A stretch of DNA of 64,000 nt. Origin: Gemmatimonadota bacterium (GTDB lineage Bacteria; Gemmatimonadota; Gemmatimonadetes; Longimicrobiales; Gaopeijiaceae). How positions within the stretch are numbered: position 1 is the first letter of the stretch; every line of letters starts with the position of its first letter. The notes under the pieces were generated by a model. That model saw only the letters and a list, made by a program, of their open reading frames with translations. It had not been told where the DNA came from and ran no database searches. The position numbers and the translations under genes were made by a program. Below, in pieces: positions 2,002-17,347 of this stretch. The stretch covers positions 1 through 64,000 of the forward strand of contig JAJDXM010000017.1 in NCBI GenBank assembly GCA_022823225.1, read 5' to 3'.

Positions 2002-3444
2002 CTACAGGAACGCCCCGGCAACCGCGAAGCAGACGGTCGCCACCGCACCGCCCGCCAGCGCGTACGGCAATTGCGTGCGCACATGGTCGACGTGGTCGGT
2101 CGCGGACGCCATGGAAGATATCACGGTGGTGTCGCTGATGGGCGAGCAGTGGTCGCCGAAGATCCCGCCGGAGAGCGCAGCCGCCAGGAAGGGGGCGAGG
2201 TCCAGATCCATGGCTGCCGCGGCGGGGACCACGATCGGGATCATGATGGCAAAGGTTCCCCAGCTCGAGCCGATCGAAAACGCGATCGCGGAGGAGACGA
2301 CGAAGACGAGCGGAAGGAAGACGGCCGGGGCCAGGTTCCCCTCCACAAGGCCGGCCACGTAGTCGCCGGTACCCAGCGCGCCCGCCACGTCGCCGAGCGC
2401 CAGGGCGAGGATCAGGATGAGCGCCAGGGGCACCAGTCCGCCCGCCCCTCGCAGCGCGATCTTCACCAGCTCGTCGACCTTGAAGCCCTTCTGGGCCAGC
2501 AGGAGGATCCACGCGGCCCCCAGCCCCGCCATCGAGGCCCACAGGACGGACGTGGAGCCTTCCCCGGCCCGCAGTGTGCCGTCGCCGGTGATCCACAGCC
2601 CCAGCGGCATCATCAGCACGAGCACCACCACGGGGACGATCATGTTCAGGGCGCGGGGCGGGATCGGGGGCTCTTCCTCGCCGCCGAGCACCCCTTCGTC
2701 CATCATCGGCATGGCTCCAGCCGAAAGAACCTCGCCCTCGGCGGCGCGTTTCTCGGCCCGCTTCATCGGCCCCCAGTCCAGCTTCCACAGCACGACCGCG
2801 AGCGCCAGAAGCACCGCCGCGAAGGAGTAGAAGTTGAAGAGGATCGAACGCAGAAAGACCCCGAGGGAGTCCTCCACTCCAGCGCGGTTCAGGAGACCGA
2901 GGTTGTAGGCGCCCCACGCGTTGAGCGGAATCAGTATGCAGATCGGGGCGCTCGTGGAGTCGATCAGGTAGGCCAGCTTTTCGCGGGAGACCCGGTAGCG
3001 GTCGAAGAGGGGACGGGAGACCGATCCGGCGACGAGCACCGTGATGTTGGACTCGATGAAGATGGCCACGCCGATGATCCACGCCAGGAACTGGGCGCGG
3101 CGCCCGTTCGTGACCCAGCGCCTCCGCTCCAGCCACGAAACGAATCCGGCGACTCCCCCGGAAGCCGACAGCGTCGCGATCAGCGCACCGATCACCAGGG
3201 TGAACAACACCACCTTGGCTTCCCCCGGGTTGCAGGGCTCGCCGAGTTCCTCCGGTGTGCATCCCAGTACCCGCACCCCGTACTCGATGCTCTCCGACAG
3301 CCCCGCCGCCGGGTTCCACCCGCTCAGGATGGTGCAGCCGAGCCAGATCCCGCCCGCCAGCGACAGGTACACCTGCCGGGTCTTGATCGCCAGACCGATC
3401 GCGAGAAGCGGGGGCAGCAGGGAGATCCAGGTGGGTTCGCTCAT
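2002..3444 (-). CDS. NhaC-family Na+/H+ antiporter
   Basis: This is an inner-membrane secondary transporter of the NhaC/ArsB-like superfamily, expected to exchange sodium for protons. The protein has about 480 residues and roughly a dozen hydrophobic segments, for example WISLLPPLLAIGLAI at the N-terminus, FIESNITVLVAGS near 120, and AIAFSIGSSWGTFAIMIPIV near 390, which is typical of the family core. A charged stretch (residues about 210-255) is probably a cytoplasmic loop. I chose ATG 3444, although a TTG two codons upstream is possible. It starts 11 nt after the stop of the glycosylase gene and is probably cotranscribed with it. The substrate is inferred; some relatives carry amino or organic acids. 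Confidence 0.8.
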   Translation of the reverse strand: MSEPTWISLLPPLLAIGLAIKTRQVYLSLAGGIWLGCTILSGWNPAAGLSESIEYGVRVLGCTPEELGEPCNPGEAKVVLFTLVIGALIATLSASGGVAGFVSWLERRRWVTNGRRAQFLAWIIGVAIFIESNITVLVAGSVSRPLFDRYRVSREKLAYLIDSTSAPICILIPLNAWGAYNLGLLNRAGVEDSLGVFLRSILFNFYSFAAVLLALAVVLWKLDWGPMKRAEKRAAEGEVLSAGAMPMMDEGVLGGEEEPPIPPRALNMIVPVVVLVLMMPLGLWITGDGTLRAGEGSTSVLWASMAGLGAAWILLLAQKGFKVDELVKIALRGAGGLVPLALILILALALGDVAGALGTGDYVAGLVEGNLAPAVFLPLVFVVSSAIAFSIGSSWGTFAIMIPIVVPAAAAMDLDLAPFLAAALSGGIFGDHCSPISDTTVISSMASATDHVDHVRTQLPYALAGGAVATVCFAVAGAFL

Positions 3445-3455
3445 GACCAACTAAC

Positions 3456-4037
3456 CTACCACCTTGGCGGCTTCACCGCCGGATGTCCCTTGACGAAGAA
3501 CCTGAGTGGCCAGTCTGCTGCCCGGGAGACGCCGATCCGGCCCGACGCGCCCGTCTTGGACTCCTCCACCGGGGTGCCGGGGATCAGCCGCACCGGCGGG
3601 CGCGCCAGGTCGTGGTAGTTGTGCCGCATCGTAATGCCGAGCGCCTGGGCAAGACGCCCCGGGCCGCTGCACAGGTCGGTATCGCGCTTCCGGCGCGCGG
3701 CCATCACCTCCCGGCCGGCGACCGGATCGAGGGCGCGGATGAGGACCGCGGCCGGGACGCCTTCCTCGCCGGTGACCACGTTGATGCAGTGGTGGATGCC
3801 GTAGGAGACGTACACGTAGAGTGTGCCGCGCGCCGCGAACATCGCGTCGTTGCGCGGCGTGCGTCCCTTCGAAACGTGGGCGTGGCTCGCGGGGTCGGCG
3901 AGCCCCAGGTAGGCCTCGGTCTCGACGATCACGCCCCTGGTTTCGGAGCCGTCCACGGTGGAGACAAGCGTCGACCCGAGAAGGCGCCGTGCGACGTCCG
4001 CGGTATCGCCGTCCAGGAATTCCCGGCGCCGGCCCAC
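3456..4037 (-). CDS. 3-methyladenine DNA glycosylase (AAG/MPG family)
   Basis: This base-excision-repair enzyme removes alkylated purines by flipping the base and cutting the N-glycosidic bond. The 193-residue single domain matches bacterial AAG. The catalytic glutamate lies in GVIVETEAYLG near residue 45. DPASHAHVSKGRTPRND, LYVYVSYGIHHCINVV and AVLIRALDP follow in the usual order. The start is GTG 4037. It sits between an NYN/OST-HTH gene (20-nt gap) and nhaC in a leftward run. Nothing suggests a functional link between the three beyond shared transcription. Confidence 0.92.
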   Translation of the reverse strand: MGRRREFLDGDTADVARRLLGSTLVSTVDGSETRGVIVETEAYLGLADPASHAHVSKGRTPRNDAMFAARGTLYVYVSYGIHHCINVVTGEEGVPAAVLIRALDPVAGREVMAARRKRDTDLCSGPGRLAQALGITMRHNYHDLARPPVRLIPGTPVEESKTGASGRIGVSRAADWPLRFFVKGHPAVKPPRW

Positions 4038-4057
4038 AGCTGCGGGGCCGTGGGCTG

Positions 4058-5890
4058 CTAGTCGCGGGCGCCGCGATCGCGCTTGCGGCGCCCCCAGGGA
4101 AGCAGGCCGCGCAGGCGCGACTTTCCTCCGTCGTCATCCGCCGGCGCCTCCCCCGGTTTGCCCCGGCGCGCGCCCTTCGCGACGGCATGGCCCTCGGTGT
4201 CCCCGCCGGGCGTCTCCGAAAGCGGGAGTCCGGGCTGTCTCACCGCGTCCTCCGTGCGACGATCCCGCGCGGGTGCGCGGCCCGCCGGTCGGGATCCCCC
4301 CCTGGGGCCGCGTTGCCGCTGGTGCGCGGTGGAACCCGCTCGCCGTCCACCGCTCCGGGTGCTTGCCGCCACGCCACGGCGCCCTCCCGCCGGTGCCGGC
4401 GCCGCCGCCTTTTCGGCCGCCTTCGCGCGGCGCCGCTCGTAGTCTCCGGTCCAGTTCTGGAGCACCGTCTCGGCGCGCGCGCGCGAAAGCACCTTCTTCA
4501 CTCGCTCCGGCGATTCGTGCAGCACGCTGAACACCTCCGCCCCGAACTGTTCGACCAGACGCTCCGCGGTCTTGATACCCACGCCCTTGTACCGATTCGC
4601 CAGGTAGCTCCGGATCGAGTTTTCGCTCGTCGGCAGCTCGAGGGCCCTGGCGTCGAACGGAACGCCGTCGGCCCGACCCGGGTCCGCGAGCCGGACCTCG
4701 AAGCTCCCGCCCCGCAGACGTCCCAGGGACACGATTCCCTCCGCTTCGGCGAACTGCAGGAACTTGCTGAACTTCCCGAATCCGAACGCACCTTCGTCGA
4801 AGTCCTTGTCGATCGCGAGCATCTTGCGCTTCAGGTCCGAATCGCGGACGGACGACCCTCGGTGCTGTCCGGCCAGTTCGCGCACGGCACGCCCGAGCAG
4901 ATCCAGAGCCGGGCGGGGGTCCTGGCGCGAGGCGCTCTTCTGTCCGGTGGCGGCGCGCGTTCCCCGTGTGGACGCCTCCTCCCCGCTGCCGTTCCTTCCC
5001 GCCCTGCCCGCCGGGGCACGGCGGGCTGGAGCGGCACGGCGTTCCCTGCCACCCTGATCGGCCTCGGCCGGGCCCGGTGCAGCGGCGCGCCTGTCGGGCG
5101 GGGGGGGCTCGGGCAGCTGCTCCGAAGGCGCGACCAGATACTGCCCGTTCGCGGCGCGCTCGATGGCAACGAGGCCCTTGTTCGCCGCCTCGACCAGGAA
5201 CTTCGAGAAGTTCTTGAATCCGAGACCCCGCTCGTCGAACGCCGGCCACAGCTCGATCATCACCTGCTTGAGGCGATCGGAACGCATGACGTCGCCACGC
5301 GAAACCATGCGCGTGACCGCTTCTTCCACACAGTGCCACGCGTCGGGTTCTCCGAGGTCCTCTTCCGATGTCTTGCTGAGTCCGGCAAGCGACGTGTAGG
5401 AGTAGTACTCGTCACAGTTCTGGACCAGGATGTCGGACGTGGACTCCTGGATCCCGATCCCGATCACGTACTTCCCGTACTCCTTGAGCTTCAGGACGAG
5501 GCTCGAGAAATCGGAGTCTCCGGTCAGCAGGATGTAGGTGCCGATCTCCGGACGGATGAACACCAGTTCGATCCCGTCGATCGCCATGCGGATGTCCGTA
5601 GCGTTCTTCTTCGAACTCCCGTATGCGGGGGCGAAGATCAGGTCGATCGACGCTTCCGAAAGGGGGACGATGTACTGGGGATACCGGCGCCAGTCGGCGT
5701 ACGCCCTCTGTACCGTCACCTTGCCCTTGATGATGTCCGAGTCGAGCAGCCGCTTCAGTTCCTTGGCCAGATCGCTCCGCATTCCCATGGTGACGTTGTC
5801 GAAATCGATCAGCAACGCCGCGTTGGGGGCTTCACGGTGCGCCGCCGCGGCGGGATCGGCATGGGGCGCCTTCATATAGGGATTGACCAT
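4058..5890 (-). CDS. NYN-domain protein with two OST-HTH/LOTUS domains and a HhH-like segment
   Basis: This is a predicted RNA-directed protein of 610 residues. Residues about 20-170 form a PIN-like NYN (DUF88/LabA) domain with the acidic positions LLIDFDNV, ATDIRMAIDGIEL and LLTGDSDFSSLV, which suggests a metal-dependent RNase. Two OST-HTH/LOTUS modules follow (about 180-255 and 320-400), each with the GFGKFSKFL or GFKNFSKFL signature. A segment near 425-475 (KGVGIKTAERLVEQFG) resembles a helix-hairpin-helix nucleic-acid-binding motif. The last ~130 residues are Arg/Ala/Gly-rich and probably disordered. LOTUS domains are known to bind G-rich or structured RNA. Nuclease activity is inferred from the family. 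ATG 5890 lies 4 nt from the upstream ligase stop; an ATG at 5875 is the alternative. Confidence 0.85.
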   Translation of the reverse strand: MVNPYMKAPHADPAAAAHREAPNAALLIDFDNVTMGMRSDLAKELKRLLDSDIIKGKVTVQRAYADWRRYPQYIVPLSEASIDLIFAPAYGSSKKNATDIRMAIDGIELVFIRPEIGTYILLTGDSDFSSLVLKLKEYGKYVIGIGIQESTSDILVQNCDEYYSYTSLAGLSKTSEEDLGEPDAWHCVEEAVTRMVSRGDVMRSDRLKQVMIELWPAFDERGLGFKNFSKFLVEAANKGLVAIERAANGQYLVAPSEQLPEPPPPDRRAAAPGPAEADQGGRERRAAPARRAPAGRAGRNGSGEEASTRGTRAATGQKSASRQDPRPALDLLGRAVRELAGQHRGSSVRDSDLKRKMLAIDKDFDEGAFGFGKFSKFLQFAEAEGIVSLGRLRGGSFEVRLADPGRADGVPFDARALELPTSENSIRSYLANRYKGVGIKTAERLVEQFGAEVFSVLHESPERVKKVLSRARAETVLQNWTGDYERRRAKAAEKAAAPAPAGGRRGVAASTRSGGRRAGSTAHQRQRGPRGGSRPAGRAPARDRRTEDAVRQPGLPLSETPGGDTEGHAVAKGARRGKPGEAPADDDGGKSRLRGLLPWGRRKRDRGARD

Positions 5891-5893
5891 TCT

Positions 5894-7504
5894 TCATTCG
5901 TCCAGCAAGTCATCGCGTTCCCCCGCGGGCCGGTCCGGCCGTTCGGCAACAACCCGGCGGGCGACCTCGCGCCTCCACACCTTGCCGGTCCCGGTAAGGG
6001 GAAGTTCCTCCATGAAGGTAACAAGATCGGGGACCTTGTAGTCCGCCAGGGTGGCCGCACACCAGCTCCTGATCTCGTTCCCGGTCACGATTCCGCCTTC
6101 GATCCGCACGACGCACGCGCATATCGCCTCGCCCAGGATCTCGTCCGCAATGCCGACGACCGCACTCCGTTCCACCGCCGGATGAGCCAGAAGCCGATCC
6201 TCCACCTCTCGTGCGTGAACGTTCGTCCCACCGCGGATGATCACGTCCTCCCGCCGGCCGAGCAGGTGAAGGTAGCCTGCCTCGTCCACCATGCCGATGT
6301 CGCCGGTCCGGAGGTATCCCCGGGCGTCGGTCGCAGCCGCCGTCTCGCGCGGCTGGCGGAAGTATCCGCGCATGACGCCGGGCCCCCGCACCCGGATTTC
6401 CCCGACGCTCTCGGTCGGAAGATCCTCTCCGTCGTCCCCGGTGACGCGCACCTCGGTCTCTCCGATCGGCCGTCCCACCGTGAAGACGCGCTTGTCGGGC
6501 GGGTCCCCGGGGCGGCTCACGGCCAGTGTGGACGAGGTCTCGGTGAGGGAGTAGGCAATCAGCAGGGGCGTGCCGAACGTACGCTCGATGCGGCGGGCGA
6601 GGTCGTCCCGAACCGGCGCCCCCGACGCCAGGCAGAGTCTCAGGTTCGGCGGGGTGCCGCCCTGTTCCGCAATCCGGCGGAGTTCCTTCGCAAAGAGGGT
6701 CGGGATCCCGTAGTGCACGGTCGCAGCGTGGCGTCTGGCCAGCTCCAGTGTTTCGGCCTCGTCCACTCCGTCCTGGAGCACCAGGCAGGCGCCGCCGAGA
6801 ACGGTCCCAAGGAGCCCGGGGCCAAGACCGAAGGCGTGGAAGAGCGCGCTGACACCCACCACGACATCTTCTTCGGTGAGCTGCACGGCATCGATGGTTC
6901 CCCGGGCCGCATGAATGAGGCCGCGGTGCGTGAGTTCGACTCCCTTCGGCTTGCCCGTCGTCCCCGACGTGTAGACGACGGCAAAGGGGTCGTCGGGGCT
7001 GGCGGGATGCGCATGGAAATCGCGTCCCAATCCGGCGGAAAGGAGATCCTCCCACTGGAAGACCCTGTCGTCGTACCAGAGGTCCTCTTCGCCGACGGTG
7101 ACCAGGTGGTTGAGTTCCGGCAGTTCAACGAGAAGATCCTCAAAGAGCTGCAGATAGTCGATGCCGTAGGCGTTCTCGGCCGTGATCGCGCACGCCGCTC
7201 CGGAATGCCTGAGCATGTAGCGCAGCTCCGGCGGGGTGAGCCGGGGATTCAGGGGCACGATTGTCGCGCCCAGCTTCGCGGCCGCGAACACGGACACCGC
7301 AAATTCGGGCCAGGCGGGAAGCAGAAGCGCGATCCGGTCGCCGGACCCGATCCCGAGGTTGGCCAGGGAGGCCGCGAGCGCCTCGGACTGGTCGTCCACG
7401 TCTCCGAAGGAGAAGGCTGCCTCCTGCGCAAGCAGGAACGGGGCCCCGGGATTGCGTGTCGCTCGCGACGCCAGAACCGATGAGATCGTGTACCGGTTTT
7501 CCAA
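5894..7504 (-). CDS. Class I adenylate-forming acyl-CoA synthetase
   Basis: This is an AMP-forming ligase that activates a carboxylic acid, probably a fatty or aryl acid, to its CoA thioester. The A3 motif VYTSGTTGKPKGVELTHRG (about residue 155), GEIRVRGPGVMRGYF, TGDIGMVDEAGYLHLLGRR and the C-terminal catalytic lysine in PLTGTGKVWRREV are all present. I chose TTG 7504 (536 aa): GGAGAG lies just upstream, directly after the aroB stop, and residues upstream of it read as aroB shadow. The chain-length class cannot be told from motifs. It could feed the beta-oxidation genes at 23-29 kb (inference). Confidence 0.88.
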   Translation of the reverse strand: MENRYTISSVLASRATRNPGAPFLLAQEAAFSFGDVDDQSEALAASLANLGIGSGDRIALLLPAWPEFAVSVFAAAKLGATIVPLNPRLTPPELRYMLRHSGAACAITAENAYGIDYLQLFEDLLVELPELNHLVTVGEEDLWYDDRVFQWEDLLSAGLGRDFHAHPASPDDPFAVVYTSGTTGKPKGVELTHRGLIHAARGTIDAVQLTEEDVVVGVSALFHAFGLGPGLLGTVLGGACLVLQDGVDEAETLELARRHAATVHYGIPTLFAKELRRIAEQGGTPPNLRLCLASGAPVRDDLARRIERTFGTPLLIAYSLTETSSTLAVSRPGDPPDKRVFTVGRPIGETEVRVTGDDGEDLPTESVGEIRVRGPGVMRGYFRQPRETAAATDARGYLRTGDIGMVDEAGYLHLLGRREDVIIRGGTNVHAREVEDRLLAHPAVERSAVVGIADEILGEAICACVVRIEGGIVTGNEIRSWCAATLADYKVPDLVTFMEELPLTGTGKVWRREVARRVVAERPDRPAGERDDLLDE

Positions 7505-7520
7505 ACGCGGCTCTCCGTGG

Positions 7521-8660
7521 CTACGGATCCTGCAGGACCAGCCCCCTGATGACTCCGACCAGATCGGCTTCCGGGACCGGAACGGTCGTTTCATCGGCGG
7601 CACCGGTGCGCCCGAACTCCACCAGGCGCACAATATGCACTACACCGGAACGTGTCTTCTTGTCCCGGATCATGAGGTCTACCAACTGGAGCGCGCGCGC
7701 GAACGCAGGGTGGCTGTGCGGCAGGCCGAAGGCCGTGACCAGGGTCCGAATCTCCTCGGCGGTCCCGGGCGCGGTCAATCCAAGTTCTTCGCCGATCCGC
7801 GCTTCCGCAACCATCCCGACCGCCACCGCGTGCCCGTGCGGGAGGGCATACCGGGACGCGGCTTCCAGCGCGTGCGCCACGGTGTGGCCGAAGTTGAGGA
7901 TCTTTCGCGAACCGGTCTCGAATTCGTCGCCCGACACGACCTCCGCCTTGAGTTCCACCGAGCGGACGACCGCGCGCGTCACCTCCCCGGGGCTGCCGTC
8001 CAGCAGCGGCGCGGCGTGCGAGGCCAGCCAGCCGGCATACGCGGCATCGAGGGTCACCCCGTGCTTGACGGCCTCGGCGTACCCCGCGGCTCTCACCCCC
8101 CGATCGAGGGTGCTCAGGAAATCGGGGTCCGCCAGCACCATCGCCGGCGCGTGGAATGCCCCGACCAGGTTCTTCCCAGCCGGGTGGTCCACCCCGGTCT
8201 TTCCGCCCACCGAAGCATCGATCATCGCCAGGGTCGTGGTGGGCAGCTGCACCAGGGGCACGCCCCTCAGGAAGGTCGCGGCCACAAAGCCCGCGAGGTC
8301 GCCCGTCACCCCCCCTCCCACCGAGACAACGCAGCTGTCGCGCCCCAGGCGAGCGTCCATGAGCACATCGGTCAGGGCACTCCAGTTTGCCCGGGTCTTG
8401 CTGGTCTCCCCGGCCGGGAAAAACGCCGGCACGACGTCGATTCCGCGGCCCCGGAGCGAGGCCGCCACCTCTTCGTACCACAGGGACGCAACCGTCTCGT
8501 CGGCGATCAGGCCGCACCTTCCGGAAGGCGCGGCGACCTCCACCGCGGGACCGAGCATCTCCCGCACGCCGCTCCCCACGCGGACCACATAGCCGCCCGA
8601 GGAGGAACGGACCGGCACTTCGCTGAAGCTGAGCAGGGACCGCCCCCGTTTGATGTTCAT
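7521..8660 (-). CDS. aroB: 3-dehydroquinate synthase
   Basis: This is the second shikimate-pathway enzyme, an NAD- and metal-dependent cyclase that converts DAHP to 3-dehydroquinate. About 379 residues show the family motifs in order: VVSVGGGVTGDLAGFVAA, PTTTLAMIDASVGGKTGVD, AEAVKHG, the metal-ligand region ILNFGHTVAHALEA and LPHGHAVAVGM. I chose ATG 8660 (MNIKRGRSLL); the in-frame ATGs at 8690 and 8753 add non-conserved Arg-rich sequence. It is the first gene of the leftward run that continues into the acyl-CoA ligase, and is divergent from the PBP gene. A chorismate mutase gene occurs separately at 30.6 kb. Confidence 0.93.
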   Translation of the reverse strand: MNIKRGRSLLSFSEVPVRSSSGGYVVRVGSGVREMLGPAVEVAAPSGRCGLIADETVASLWYEEVAASLRGRGIDVVPAFFPAGETSKTRANWSALTDVLMDARLGRDSCVVSVGGGVTGDLAGFVAATFLRGVPLVQLPTTTLAMIDASVGGKTGVDHPAGKNLVGAFHAPAMVLADPDFLSTLDRGVRAAGYAEAVKHGVTLDAAYAGWLASHAAPLLDGSPGEVTRAVVRSVELKAEVVSGDEFETGSRKILNFGHTVAHALEAASRYALPHGHAVAVGMVAEARIGEELGLTAPGTAEEIRTLVTAFGLPHSHPAFARALQLVDLMIRDKKTRSGVVHIVRLVEFGRTGAADETTVPVPEADLVGVIRGLVLQDP

Positions 8661-8791
8661 GTGCGCAGACTTGCCGCAGCCATGAACCATCGATGCCCGC
8701 GCGCGCCGGGTCAAGGCGCCACACGCCCGGCGAGCGCGCCGGGTGGGGGCCACACCCGGACAACCCTGTCACGCCCGCATCGCTCGAAGGT

Positions 8792-8797
8792 TATAAT
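8792..8797 (+). promoter_or_regulatory. Candidate -10 element for the PBP gene
   Basis: A perfect TATAAT lies in the 216-bp divergent gap between aroB and the PBP gene, 80 bp before the PBP start. The region upstream (around TGTCAC at 8767-8772, about 19 bp away) is only a poor -35. The call rests on the rarity of TATAAT in DNA this GC-rich. Confidence 0.35.
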
Positions 8798-8876
8798 TGG
8801 AACTGACGTTCGAAACCGCCGAAGGGCGCCAGCGGACCAGGCGGCGGCCAGGACGCGAAGGGGAGAAGGAGATTTG

Positions 8877-11066
8877 TTGCTGAAGAGGATCGCAGACTCG
8901 GTTCGCAATGCCCCTGTTCCCCGCTGGGCGTGGTTCGGCCTGCTCTTTGTGTGCGCGTCGGGGATCGGATGGGCGGCCGGCGCCTGGCGGAACCTCTGTG
9001 CCGACTGCCCGTCGATCGCCCAGATCTATACCTACGAACCGCGACAGACGAGCAAGGTCTATGCGCGCGATTCCACTCTGATCTGGGAGTTCGGGGACGA
9101 GCGCAGGACACTGGTGTCGATCGAGAGCCTCCCCGTCCATGTGCCGCAGGCGTTCATCGCGATCGAAGATCGGCGCTTCTACTCCCACAACGGGCTGGAC
9201 TGGCGTGGAATCGCCCGTGCCGGGCTCGGGGTGCTGCGCACGCGGTCGCTGTCGGGGGCGGGTGGAAGCACCATCACTCAGCAGCTCGCACGCAACATGT
9301 GGACCGAGCGCCTCGGCTTCGAAAAGCGTCTGGTACGCAAGCTGAAGGAGTGGCAGGTCGCATTGCAGCTCGAGGAGGCGTACACGAAGGACCAGATCCT
9401 CGAGGCATACATGAACCAGATCGTGTATGCCCATGGCTGGTATGGGCTTGAGACGGCGTCACGGAACTACTTCGGCAAGAGCGCCATCGACATGAACCCG
9501 GCCGAGGCGGCGTTGCTGGCGGCGATTGCCAATGTGCCGGAACGGTACAGCCCGCTGAACAACCCCGCCCAGGCGCTGCAACGGCGGAACCTGGTCCTCA
9601 CCCAGATGGCCGACCAGGGATTCCTGACCGGGGAGGAGGCCGCCCGCTGGAAGGGGGAACCGGTCCCCACCGAGCGGGCAAACCGGGTCGAGGTGCAGGC
9701 CCCCTACTTCGTCGAGTGGGTGCGCGGAATCCTCGCCGACAGGTTCGGGCACAAGCTGTATTCGGGTGGGCTCCAGATCTTCACGACCGTCGATCTCGAC
9801 ATGCAGGCCAATGCGCGGGCGGCCATGGAAGCGGGCTGGGAGCGCATCGAGGCGCGGCCGGGCTACGATCATCCCACGTACCGGGAGTTCTCGGAGGAGA
9901 ACGAAGGGGCGGATCTCCCCGGAATACCGTACCTGCAGGGGATGTTCGTCGCGGTGGACCCCGGGACCGGCCAGGTCCTTGCGATGATCGGGGGGCGCGA
10001 CCACATCCACTCGAAGTTCGACCGCGCCATTCAGGCGAGACGGCAGGCAGGCTCTTCCTTCAAGCCGTTCGTCTACGCGGCGGCACTGGAGAGCGGCATC
10101 CCGGCATCCGAGGTTTTTCTGGACGGCCCGGTGGTCCTCCCCCAGCCGGACGGCACCCTGTGGCGGCCGTCCAACTACAACCCGGAGTTTCTCGGTGCGA
10201 TCACCATGCGCGAAGCGATGGCGAAGTCGATCAACACGGTCGCGATCAAGGTCGCCGCGTGCGAGGTGGGTCTCGAGGCGGTGGCGCAGATGGCGAGACG
10301 GCTCGGGATCCGCACCGAGATCAACCGCTTCCCGGCGACGGCGATCGGCGCGGCCGATGTGATTCCGATCCAGATGGTGGAAGCGTACGCCACCCTCGCC
10401 AATCTCGGATCCCGCGTGCGCCCCTTCCCGGTTCTCGAGGTGGTGAGTCCGGAGGGCGAGGTTCTCTGGAGACCCGCCCCCGAGAGCACGGAGGAACTCG
10501 ATCCTCTCGTGGCGCGGCTGGTCGTTTCGATGCTCGAAGAGGTCGTCCGCTCGGGAACGGGATACAATGGGATTCGCTCCGCCGCGGGCGCGGGCCTGCC
10601 CTATGAGGTTCCGGCCGCCGGAAAGTCGGGCACGACGAACGAACACAGCAACGTCTGGTTTCTGGGCTTCACCCCCAACCTCGCCGCGGGAGTCTGGTTC
10701 GGGATGGACACGCCGGTGCCGATCGCCGACCGCGCCACCGGAGGAGGACTGGCAGCGCCCGTCTGGGGCGACTTCATGCGGCGGATCTACTATGGAGAAG
10801 CGGTCGGCACCGACGGCAGCCTCGGCGATACGGGCACCGGGCCGCTTCTGCAGATACCCGAACCGTGGCCGATCCCGGACGGGCTCGCCAGACAACGTGT
10901 GGATCGCGAGACCGGCCTTCTGGCGTCGCGCTGGTGTCCGCCCGAGGAAGCGTACGAGGAACTCTATCTTCCCGGCACCGAGCCCACCGCCCCTTGCGAC
11001 CGCCAGAACCGGCCCGTAATCCAGGATTGTTTGAACCAAATGCATCCGACAGGCTTTCCAGAATGA
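8877..11066 (+). CDS. Class A penicillin-binding protein (PBP1A-type)
   Basis: This bifunctional peptidoglycan glycosyltransferase/transpeptidase is anchored in the inner membrane and acts in the periplasm. A TM segment (WAWFGLLFVCASGIGWAAG) follows a short basic N-terminus. The GT51 domain shows FIAIEDRRFYSHNGLDW and GAGGSTITQQLARNMW. The transpeptidase domain has the SxxK serine in RRQAGSSFKPFVY (about residue 390), SIN (about 450), and KSGTTNEHSNVWFLGF (about 580), the KTG equivalent. The start is one of two consecutive TTG codons (8874/8877) behind GGAGAAGGAG. The 729 residues are normal for the class. The last codons overlap the DUF3343 gene by ATGA. Confidence 0.93.
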   Translation: MLKRIADSVRNAPVPRWAWFGLLFVCASGIGWAAGAWRNLCADCPSIAQIYTYEPRQTSKVYARDSTLIWEFGDERRTLVSIESLPVHVPQAFIAIEDRRFYSHNGLDWRGIARAGLGVLRTRSLSGAGGSTITQQLARNMWTERLGFEKRLVRKLKEWQVALQLEEAYTKDQILEAYMNQIVYAHGWYGLETASRNYFGKSAIDMNPAEAALLAAIANVPERYSPLNNPAQALQRRNLVLTQMADQGFLTGEEAARWKGEPVPTERANRVEVQAPYFVEWVRGILADRFGHKLYSGGLQIFTTVDLDMQANARAAMEAGWERIEARPGYDHPTYREFSEENEGADLPGIPYLQGMFVAVDPGTGQVLAMIGGRDHIHSKFDRAIQARRQAGSSFKPFVYAAALESGIPASEVFLDGPVVLPQPDGTLWRPSNYNPEFLGAITMREAMAKSINTVAIKVAACEVGLEAVAQMARRLGIRTEINRFPATAIGAADVIPIQMVEAYATLANLGSRVRPFPVLEVVSPEGEVLWRPAPESTEELDPLVARLVVSMLEEVVRSGTGYNGIRSAAGAGLPYEVPAAGKSGTTNEHSNVWFLGFTPNLAAGVWFGMDTPVPIADRATGGGLAAPVWGDFMRRIYYGEAVGTDGSLGDTGTGPLLQIPEPWPIPDGLARQRVDRETGLLASRWCPPEEAYEELYLPGTEPTAPCDRQNRPVIQDCLNQMHPTGFPE

Positions 11067-17263: not shown

Positions 17264-17347
17264 TGCCGAGGGAGGGACTCGAACCCTCACGCCCGCAAGG
17301 GCAAAGGTTTTTGAGACCTTCGCGTCTACCGGTTCCGCCACCTCGGC
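17264..17347 (-). tRNA. tRNA-Leu (anticodon CAA)
   Basis: The minus strand folds as a class II tRNA. The acceptor pair is GCCGAGG/CCTCGGC with discriminator A, and the D-arm sequence is GCGGAACCGGTAGACGC. The anticodon stem is AAGGT/ACCTT around loop CTCAAAA, giving CAA. A long variable arm (GCCC-TTGC-GGGC) and T-arm GAGGG-TTCGAGT-CCCTC complete it. CCA is not encoded. It decodes UUG leucine codons. Confidence 0.95.

Follow-up and report, generated by a model that had tools for sequence, protein, structure and literature searches.

A class-wide NYN-LOTUS gene of Gemmatimonadota with a conserved mpg neighbour: a predicted endoribonuclease carrying a RecD2-type helix-hairpin-helix domain in one clade

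We analyzed a 64,000-nucleotide stretch of DNA from a Gemmatimonadota bacterium (the window) and focused on one gene on its minus strand, at positions 4058-5890, which encodes a 610-residue protein. The protein combines an N-terminal NYN/DUF88 nuclease domain with two LOTUS (OST-HTH) domains and a tandem helix-hairpin-helix, (HhH)2, of the RecD2 type. The gene is present in nearly all sampled genomes of the window's class, it keeps its putative active-site aspartates in every class-wide sequence compared, and it mostly lies directly upstream of mpg, the gene for a 3-methyladenine DNA glycosylase. With moderate confidence, we propose that the protein acts as a metal-dependent endoribonuclease of the MARF1/DNE1 kind and serves a housekeeping function in the class, its activity and substrate being predicted from the sequence.

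The gene begins with an ATG at 5890 and ends with a stop codon at 4058-4060. A preliminary description of this DNA had placed an open reading frame (ORF) at 4058-5890 without giving a strand; the ORF is real and exactly placed, and we found it on the minus strand, with a third-codon-position GC content of 0.83, like the neighbouring genes. A longer plus-strand ORF (3821-7483) covering the same positions was ruled out as the true gene by codon-position GC and conservation. The protein has a single match in its own 4.19-Mb genome. The make-up of one NYN domain, two LOTUS domains, and a helix-hairpin-helix (HhH), as already recognized in the preliminary description, was recovered by Pfam, NCBIfam, and structure matches. 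The features are listed below, with model confidence given as the predicted local distance difference test (pLDDT).

4058-5890, minus strand: NYN-LOTUS-LOTUS-(HhH)2 protein (ORF, codon-position GC, single genome match)
5399-5821, minus strand: NYN/DUF88 domain (LK-nuclease, PIN-like), residues 24-164 (PF01936, E=2.7e-24)
5804-5806, minus strand: putative active-site aspartate D29 (aligned to VPA0982 via a relative)
5693-5695, minus strand: further invariant aspartate D66
5594-5596, minus strand: putative active-site aspartate D99 (aligned directly to VPA0982)
5516-5518, minus strand: putative active-site aspartate D125 (aligned directly to VPA0982)
5123-5353, minus strand: first LOTUS/OST-HTH domain, residues 180-256 (best PF12872 stretch 201-252; pLDDT 80-97 over 181-260)
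4931-5122, minus strand: low-complexity R/G/A/P-rich linker, residues 257-320 (sequence unconserved, low pLDDT)
4679-4930, minus strand: second LOTUS/OST-HTH domain, residues 321-404 (TDRD7 LOTUS structure match, weak second PF12872 stretch)
4421-4639, minus strand: RecD2-type tandem HhH, residues 418-490 (TIGR01448 match, model pLDDT 93.8, fold comparisons)
4541-4588, minus strand: hairpin K435-G450 of the HhH
4061-4420, minus strand: basic R/G/A/P-rich tail, residues 491-610 (mostly low model confidence)

The preliminary description had suggested following the phylogenetic spread of this domain order. A scan of contigs from 84,980 species with the window protein as query returned 371 stretches, 207 of which encode relatives, and the best 80 of these 207 made up a pattern-selected set, which is biased to close kin and overlaps the sample described below. 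Among these 80, three loci (L021, L047, and L053) are labelled as Gammaproteobacteria, and all the remaining loci carry titles of Gemmatimonadota or of orders within it, with the "BD2-11 clade" (L055) and Candidatus Kutchimonas (L068) taken to be Gemmatimonadota. The three loci with gammaproteobacterial labels, from metagenome-assembled genomes, carry the Gemmatimonadota gene order; probably the labels are wrong or the bins are mixed. Since the first set had been chosen by pattern and score, we next used an even sample of the phylum with 61 genomes, 55 from the window's class (families f1-f7, including the window's genome) and six from outside (all f8). The gene was found in 54 of the 55 class genomes at E<=1.2e-100, the only one without it being G039, and the NYN part had no match in the six genomes outside the class (0/6). 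Four of these six matched via the HhH alone; the HhH-only matches tested (G009 and G013), as well as a second place in G038, turned out to be RecD2 proteins scoring over the model cut-off.

Conservation is strongest in the NYN domain. Mean identity to the window in the pattern-selected set (80 loci, gaps scored as differences) was 94% for NYN, 62% for the first LOTUS domain, 49% each for the second LOTUS domain and the HhH, and 8% for the tail. The family means of the even sample, computed over aligned positions only, ranged over 0.80-0.96 for NYN, 0.47-0.68 for the first LOTUS domain, and 0.47-0.66 for Mpg (from 44 loci). As the 94% amino acid identity of NYN in the pattern-selected set goes with a third-position identity of 59% (73 loci), the constraint acts on the protein. 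Judged by sequence comparison, the conservation profile of the NYN domain is that of a housekeeping enzyme. Two scans of IMG/VR, with patterns from the window protein and from the family alignment, found no relative, and 8 of 50,697 phage records gave a match, all below 60% identity.

The NYN domain of the window matches the sequence of VPA0982 in the PDB with an E-value of 1.3e-5. D99 and D125 align directly with D92 and D115 of VPA0982, while D29 corresponds to D15 of a Caballeronia relative (P0003), which in turn aligns with D14 of VPA0982; the positions in chain 2qip_A were taken with an inferred three-residue offset, which is consistent for all three aspartates. D14, D92, and D115 of VPA0982 are equivalent to the active-site residues D358, D426, and D452 of MARF1, and in a CRISPR-associated NYN protein the matching D13A mutation abolishes RNA cleavage (PMC11346440). 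Mouse MARF1 needs four aspartates for cutting single-stranded RNA (PMC10226599). According to the preliminary description, acidic catalytic positions that vary among close homologues would speak against a nuclease. D29, D99, and D125, together with D66, are aspartate in all 54 class-wide sequences and in all 80 pattern-selected relatives, so the nuclease reading stood up to this check.

The OST-HTH model PF12872 recognizes the protein as a whole (E=3.6e-6; 27.2 bits, over the cut-off of 23.8). Its two stretches pass individually only at a lenient E<=10 and neither does at 0.01, so the second LOTUS domain rests mainly on structure. The structure prediction proposed in the preliminary description was carried out, and residues 323-403 of the model match the LOTUS domain of TDRD7 (3rco) with Z 10.6 and a root-mean-square deviation of 1.8 over 74 residues (VIA-align). 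In clade I relatives (see below), the model of the first LOTUS domain also detects the second one, e.g., with 1e-11 in L097. Both LOTUS domains and the HhH are confident blocks of the full-length model, mostly at pLDDT 80-98.

The HhH segment finds its best sequence match in the NCBIfam RecD2 model TIGR01448 (residues 418-487, E=9e-10), which at E<=0.01 recognizes every one of the 67 aligned members as well. Pfam HHH_5 (PF14520) stays under its cut-off in the window protein (E 0.069) and reaches E<=0.1 in 49 of the 67 HhH segments. Residues 435-450 of the 610-residue protein read KGVGIKTAERLVEQFG, and G436, G438, T441, and A442 of this GhG hairpin are invariant across the 67 sequences. The best solved relatives of the HhH sequence profile are topoisomerase V (6.1e-5) and archaeal XPF (7.1e-5). 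Modelled alone, the HhH domain forms four helices at pLDDT 93.8. In VIA-align it is most similar to RuvA (Z 6.9) and LigA (6.3), followed by XPF-ERCC1, FANCM-FAAP24 on double-stranded DNA, Hel308, and a SAM_PNT domain (6.2 each), NusA (5.9), and a flap endonuclease (5.1). As all matches lie under Z 8, they indicate a fold type and not a function, and the HhH was not assigned to a FEN-, XPF-, or RuvA-like group on this basis. The RecD2 structure 3e1s ranks 15th (E 0.056) in the Foldseek list for the full model and is absent among the listed structural matches of the HhH modelled alone. PF01367 is weakly matched (best 0.013) by 10 of the 67 HhH segments; the window protein itself contains no 5_3_exonuc domain at E<=10 in Pfam.

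The HhH is confined to one of two clades. We obtained the gene locus from 53 other positive genomes, and 48 of the ORFs are complete at the 3' end; the other five, including both from f6, run off their contigs. The HhH is present in every complete ORF of f1 (6/6), f2 (1/1), f3 (2/2), and f7 (5/5), in total 14/14 for clade I, and absent from all those of f4 (0/16) and f5 (0/18), in total 0/34 for clade II. The same HhH model detects the HhH of RecD2 at 6e-8 to 2e-13 and is thus sensitive enough for the absence in clade II to count. A midpoint-rooted tree of the first two domains (NYN-LOTUS1) and Mpg, its root not being fixed by an outgroup, separates f1, f2, f3, and f7 (support 0.966) from f4, f5, and f6 (0.994), so that a single gain or a single loss of the HhH suffices. 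The HhH had appeared as a defining part of the family, being found in all 73 ORFs of the first set that are not truncated at the edge of a contig, and the even sample corrected this to one clade. In a small search with the HhH segment alone, eight of nine genomes matched, and the ninth (G008) has the gene cut by a contig end. Of the claim in the preliminary description that the extra segment adds nucleic-acid contacts, the presence of a RecD2-type HhH stands, while its restriction to one clade makes it unnecessary for the common function. An origin of the HhH from a RecD2 of the same genome was rejected, as no match over the RecD2 cut-off exists in the window's genome, where the NYN-LOTUS gene itself, through its HhH, scores best against the RecD2 model.

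The C-terminal tail is labile across the family and often basic. RG-rich repeats were considered as a clade II substitute for the HhH and rejected, since 11 of the 14 clade I proteins carry the pattern too, as do 32 of the 34 from clade II. Many f5 tails (loci among L110-L147) look Lys/Ala/Pro-rich by eye, similar to histone H1, and a strict pattern for this matched 3 of 18. A conserved C-terminal amphipathic helix was likewise discarded as a general feature (7 of 16 f4 proteins); two kinds of short amphipathic C-terminal helices, in L119, L122, L134, and L145 and in L118, L126, and L144, are stronger than in shuffled tails. A short RFRRGSR-like motif in the C-terminal half occurs in 5/5 f7 (L103-L107) and 12/16 f4 proteins (loci among L109-L146) and is possibly a partner-binding motif.

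The two genes next to the NYN-LOTUS gene in the window are:

3456-4037, minus strand: mpg, 3-methyladenine DNA glycosylase of the MPG family, 20 bp downstream (NF002003, 206.8 bits, cut-off 182)
5894-7633, minus strand: acyl-CoA ligase, 3 bp upstream

The neighbouring DNA repair glycosylase of the preliminary description is therefore genuine, and the link goes further than was described, as the adjacency is kept across most of the class. We counted it by alignment coordinates, because open frames extend upstream and ORF borders undercount. In the even sample, 44 of the 48 loci with room for it have mpg directly downstream in the same orientation, and the aligned Mpg part begins 15-289 bp downstream. 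By family, the counts are 6/6 (f1), 1/1 (f2), 2/2 (f3), 15/16 (f4), 15/18 (f5), and 5/5 (f7), with no room in f6; the loci with room and no adjacent mpg are L110, L112, L120, and L127. The pattern-selected set gave 63 of 70. In an all-against-all comparison of neighbouring ORFs, no same-strand family other than mpg reached half of the loci in both clades (mpg: 13/16 in clade I and 28/37 in clade II, counting loci without room; same strand in 41/41), and a representative clade II neighbour is MPG by Pfam (3.4e-68). One relative, L069:1674-3119, is a shorter ORF (482 residues) whose second LOTUS region hardly aligns; there mpg is missing and nhaC comes next.

We consider that the NYN domain would cut single-stranded RNA, as the alignment of its aspartates with known active-site residues suggests. 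Both LOTUS domains, together with the basic R/G-rich linker between them, may recruit G-rich or structured RNA, by analogy with tested LOTUS domains of other proteins; animal, plant, and bacterial LOTUS domains bind G-quadruplex (G4) or G-rich RNA (Ding 2020, via PMC12247748, PMC10226599, and PMC9181182). With a GC content of 67.5% in the window, such RNA should be common. In clade I, the RecD2-type (HhH)2 would grip duplex or junction nucleic acid, and with such a grip the nuclease would probably work beside DNA, e.g., on nascent transcripts or RNA-DNA hybrids. The conserved adjacency, which like the HhH hints at a place of action near DNA, suggests that the gene is probably on one transcript with that of the base-excision glycosylase Mpg, in which case alkylation or deamination of bases may go hand in hand with the formation of the nuclease's substrate. 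A consensus scan of 3300-9000, which is weak evidence by its type, found no promoter-like site and no terminator-like site between the NYN-LOTUS gene and mpg. In a more speculative extension, which we put forward as a tentative and rather unlikely idea, the NYN-LOTUS protein and Mpg would form a class-wide two-gene system for damaged nucleic acid, in which Mpg or its lesions mark alkylated or deaminated bases and the NYN nuclease removes the transcript or strand, with the (HhH)2 of one clade sitting on DNA. The damaged substrate in such a system might, just as tentatively, be RNA, RNA-DNA hybrids, or DNA laid open where transcription takes place.

Several observations weigh against the endoribonuclease. 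Nuclease activity and RNA binding of the family are both predicted, the preference for G-rich RNA would be an extrapolation from other LOTUS domains, and a surveillance role, as suggested in the preliminary description, is a conjecture of the same order. A DNA glycosylase as neighbour argues equally for a DNA and an RNA substrate. As clade II does without the HhH, the HhH contact lies outside the core function of the family, and its structural likeness may reflect a common helical arrangement, since SAM_PNT and NusA also match. The full-length model is poor over NYN (pLDDT mostly 30-60), probably owing to the near-absence of variation among the aligned NYN sequences. Foldseek returned no match at E<=0.001 for the full-length model or for the HhH modelled alone, with a best E of 1.2 (Hel308) for the latter. 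The remaining MARF1 aspartate (its second) falls two residues off D66 in a local alignment of P0003 with human MARF1; this alignment does not back D66, which is at most a candidate for the fourth catalytic aspartate of the MARF1 type.

The protein could instead be a DNA-repair nuclease of the PIN/FEN superfamily acting after Mpg, its HhH or basic tail gripping abasic or flap DNA while NYN cuts the damaged strand. We regard this as possible but improbable. The class-wide pairing with mpg, the one same-strand family that reaches half of the loci in each clade, would fit well, as would the HhH profile matches to topoisomerase V and XPF and the structural matches to RuvA, LigA, XPF-ERCC1, and FANCM-FAAP24. 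However, these structural matches all lie under Z 8, LOTUS domains and this type of NYN are RNA-linked where tested in the literature cited here, and the HhH is absent from 34/34 complete clade II ORFs, yet mpg is adjacent in 30 of 34 f4 and f5 loci with room. The adjacency itself may only reflect an old shared transcript. Another alternative is an ordinary RNA-turnover nuclease, next to which mpg stands in a frozen gene order without function, and whose HhH would hold on to structured RNA or to a partner protein. Each clade does conserve longer strings of genes, indicating that the lineage keeps gene order: clade I has aroB, the CoA ligase, nhaC, and etf, and in clade II, which has an order of its own, the downstream side holds an aminotransferase and families without Pfam match, the upstream side a histidine kinase and a sigma-54 regulator. 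Because clade II also keeps its own order, the frozen order is a live alternative, and the labile, often basic tail would fit a general affinity element. Nevertheless, mpg is kept between the clades where the other neighbours are not: aroB is nearby in 0/33 f4 and f5 loci, nhaC in 0/29, and etfB in 0/29, and the CoA ligase, found upstream in 13 of the 15 clade I loci that have room, persists in no more than 8 of the 35 from clade II (6/33 for f4 and f5, 2/2 for f6). We consider this ordinary nuclease with a functionless adjacency unlikely.

Two further explanations appear very improbable to us. A scaffold without catalytic activity, confined to RNA binding, would account for the large non-NYN parts, which are predicted by homology to bind nucleic acid, but hardly for the NYN domain being the most conserved part, with its three mapped aspartates invariant in 54/54 sequences. 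A defence or toxin-type protein has precedents in the CRISPR ancillary NYN nuclease (PMC11346440) and in the fusion of OST-HTH to S1 domains in some TERNS3 conflict systems (PMC8195603); against it stand the presence of the gene in nearly every class genome, its metabolic neighbours in the window, the absence of any PADLOC family matching the window protein, and the lack of an IMG/VR relative with the queries used.

LOTUS domains have been studied in animal germ cells. For bacteria, NYN/DUF88 followed by a single or duplicated OST-HTH was described as a stereotypic architecture, a standalone RNA-degrading enzyme was suggested, and LOTUS domains were thought to be bacterial in origin (PMC2848206). 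The window protein, sharing the N-terminal NYN/DUF88 and the duplicated OST-HTH, is a member of this known kind. It differs by the HhH, on which the main text of PMC2848206 is silent, and by the conserved pairing with a DNA glycosylase gene, whereas the bacterial versions are reported there without a conserved neighbourhood with known RNA-processing systems. That such proteins are known but little studied, as the preliminary description had it, agrees with the open-licence literature searched, in which we found no experimental study of the role of bacterial NYN-LOTUS proteins, no paper on a NYN domain in Gemmatimonadota, and no description of an HhH added to NYN-LOTUS; the relevant sections of PMC3710099 mention HhH only for a HEPN family. 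As far as that literature goes, the RecD2-type HhH, its clean clade distribution, and the mpg pairing are new.

Among eukaryotic proteins, MARF1 of animals and DNE1 and MNU1-2 of plants likewise join a NYN nuclease to LOTUS repeats. The window protein has the DNE1-type order, NYN and then two LOTUS domains, the composition given for DNE1 and MNU (PMC10226599), and three active-site aspartate positions in common with MARF1. MARF1 contains RRM domains, whereas none was found in the window protein (Pfam, E<=10) or among the nine families matched by aligned members (E<=0.01). The decapping partners of these proteins, such as DCP1 for DNE1, are eukaryotic, and the sources cited for MARF1 and DNE1 do not mention an HhH in the sections concerned. 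The CRISPR-associated NYN ribonuclease of Bacteroides fragilis has three conserved active-site aspartates like the window NYN (PMC11346440); unlike it, the window protein has extra domains, and the ten proteins examined from its neighbourhood include no product of a CRISPR gene. With RecD2 the protein shares the HhH region (TIGR01448 positions 67-139 of 713), and RecD2 proteins of related genomes are picked up by the HhH model built from the family, but the SF1B helicase motor is lacking (37.3 bits, over 500 being required). The NYN family TIGR00288 scores 34.3 bits against a required 178. Four proteobacterial plasmid proteins (L085-L088) have NYN (4/4) and OST-HTH (3/4) at E<=0.1, the best plasmid match being 34.6% identical over residues 26-245, but lack any HhH or RecD2 match (4/4 at E<=0.1).

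In the window, the genes on the same strand form the string aroB, CoA ligase, NYN-LOTUS gene, mpg, nhaC-type antiporter, etfB, and etfA. The CoA-ligase ORF (5894-7633, listed with a TTG start) overlaps aroB (7521-8753), both on the minus strand, and its true start probably lies further downstream. An apparent fusion of the CoA ligase to NYN in L016 (an open frame of 1192 residues) was discarded, as what precedes NYN in it is the ligase gene read in a wrong frame. The only tRNA found in the window, tRNA-Leu (CAA) at 17264-17347 on the minus strand, is also its only Rfam match at gathering level.

A class-wide member with a near-frozen catalytic domain and a conserved partner gene offers a direct test of the role of bacterial NYN-LOTUS proteins, and the conserved pairing with mpg gives a tangible starting point for finding out what this enzyme family does. 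If functional, the pairing would link RNA cleavage to base repair in bacteria. The two-gene system, if true, would for the first time place bacterial LOTUS nucleases in a functional context and would give bacteria a counterpart of the surveillance of damaged RNA.

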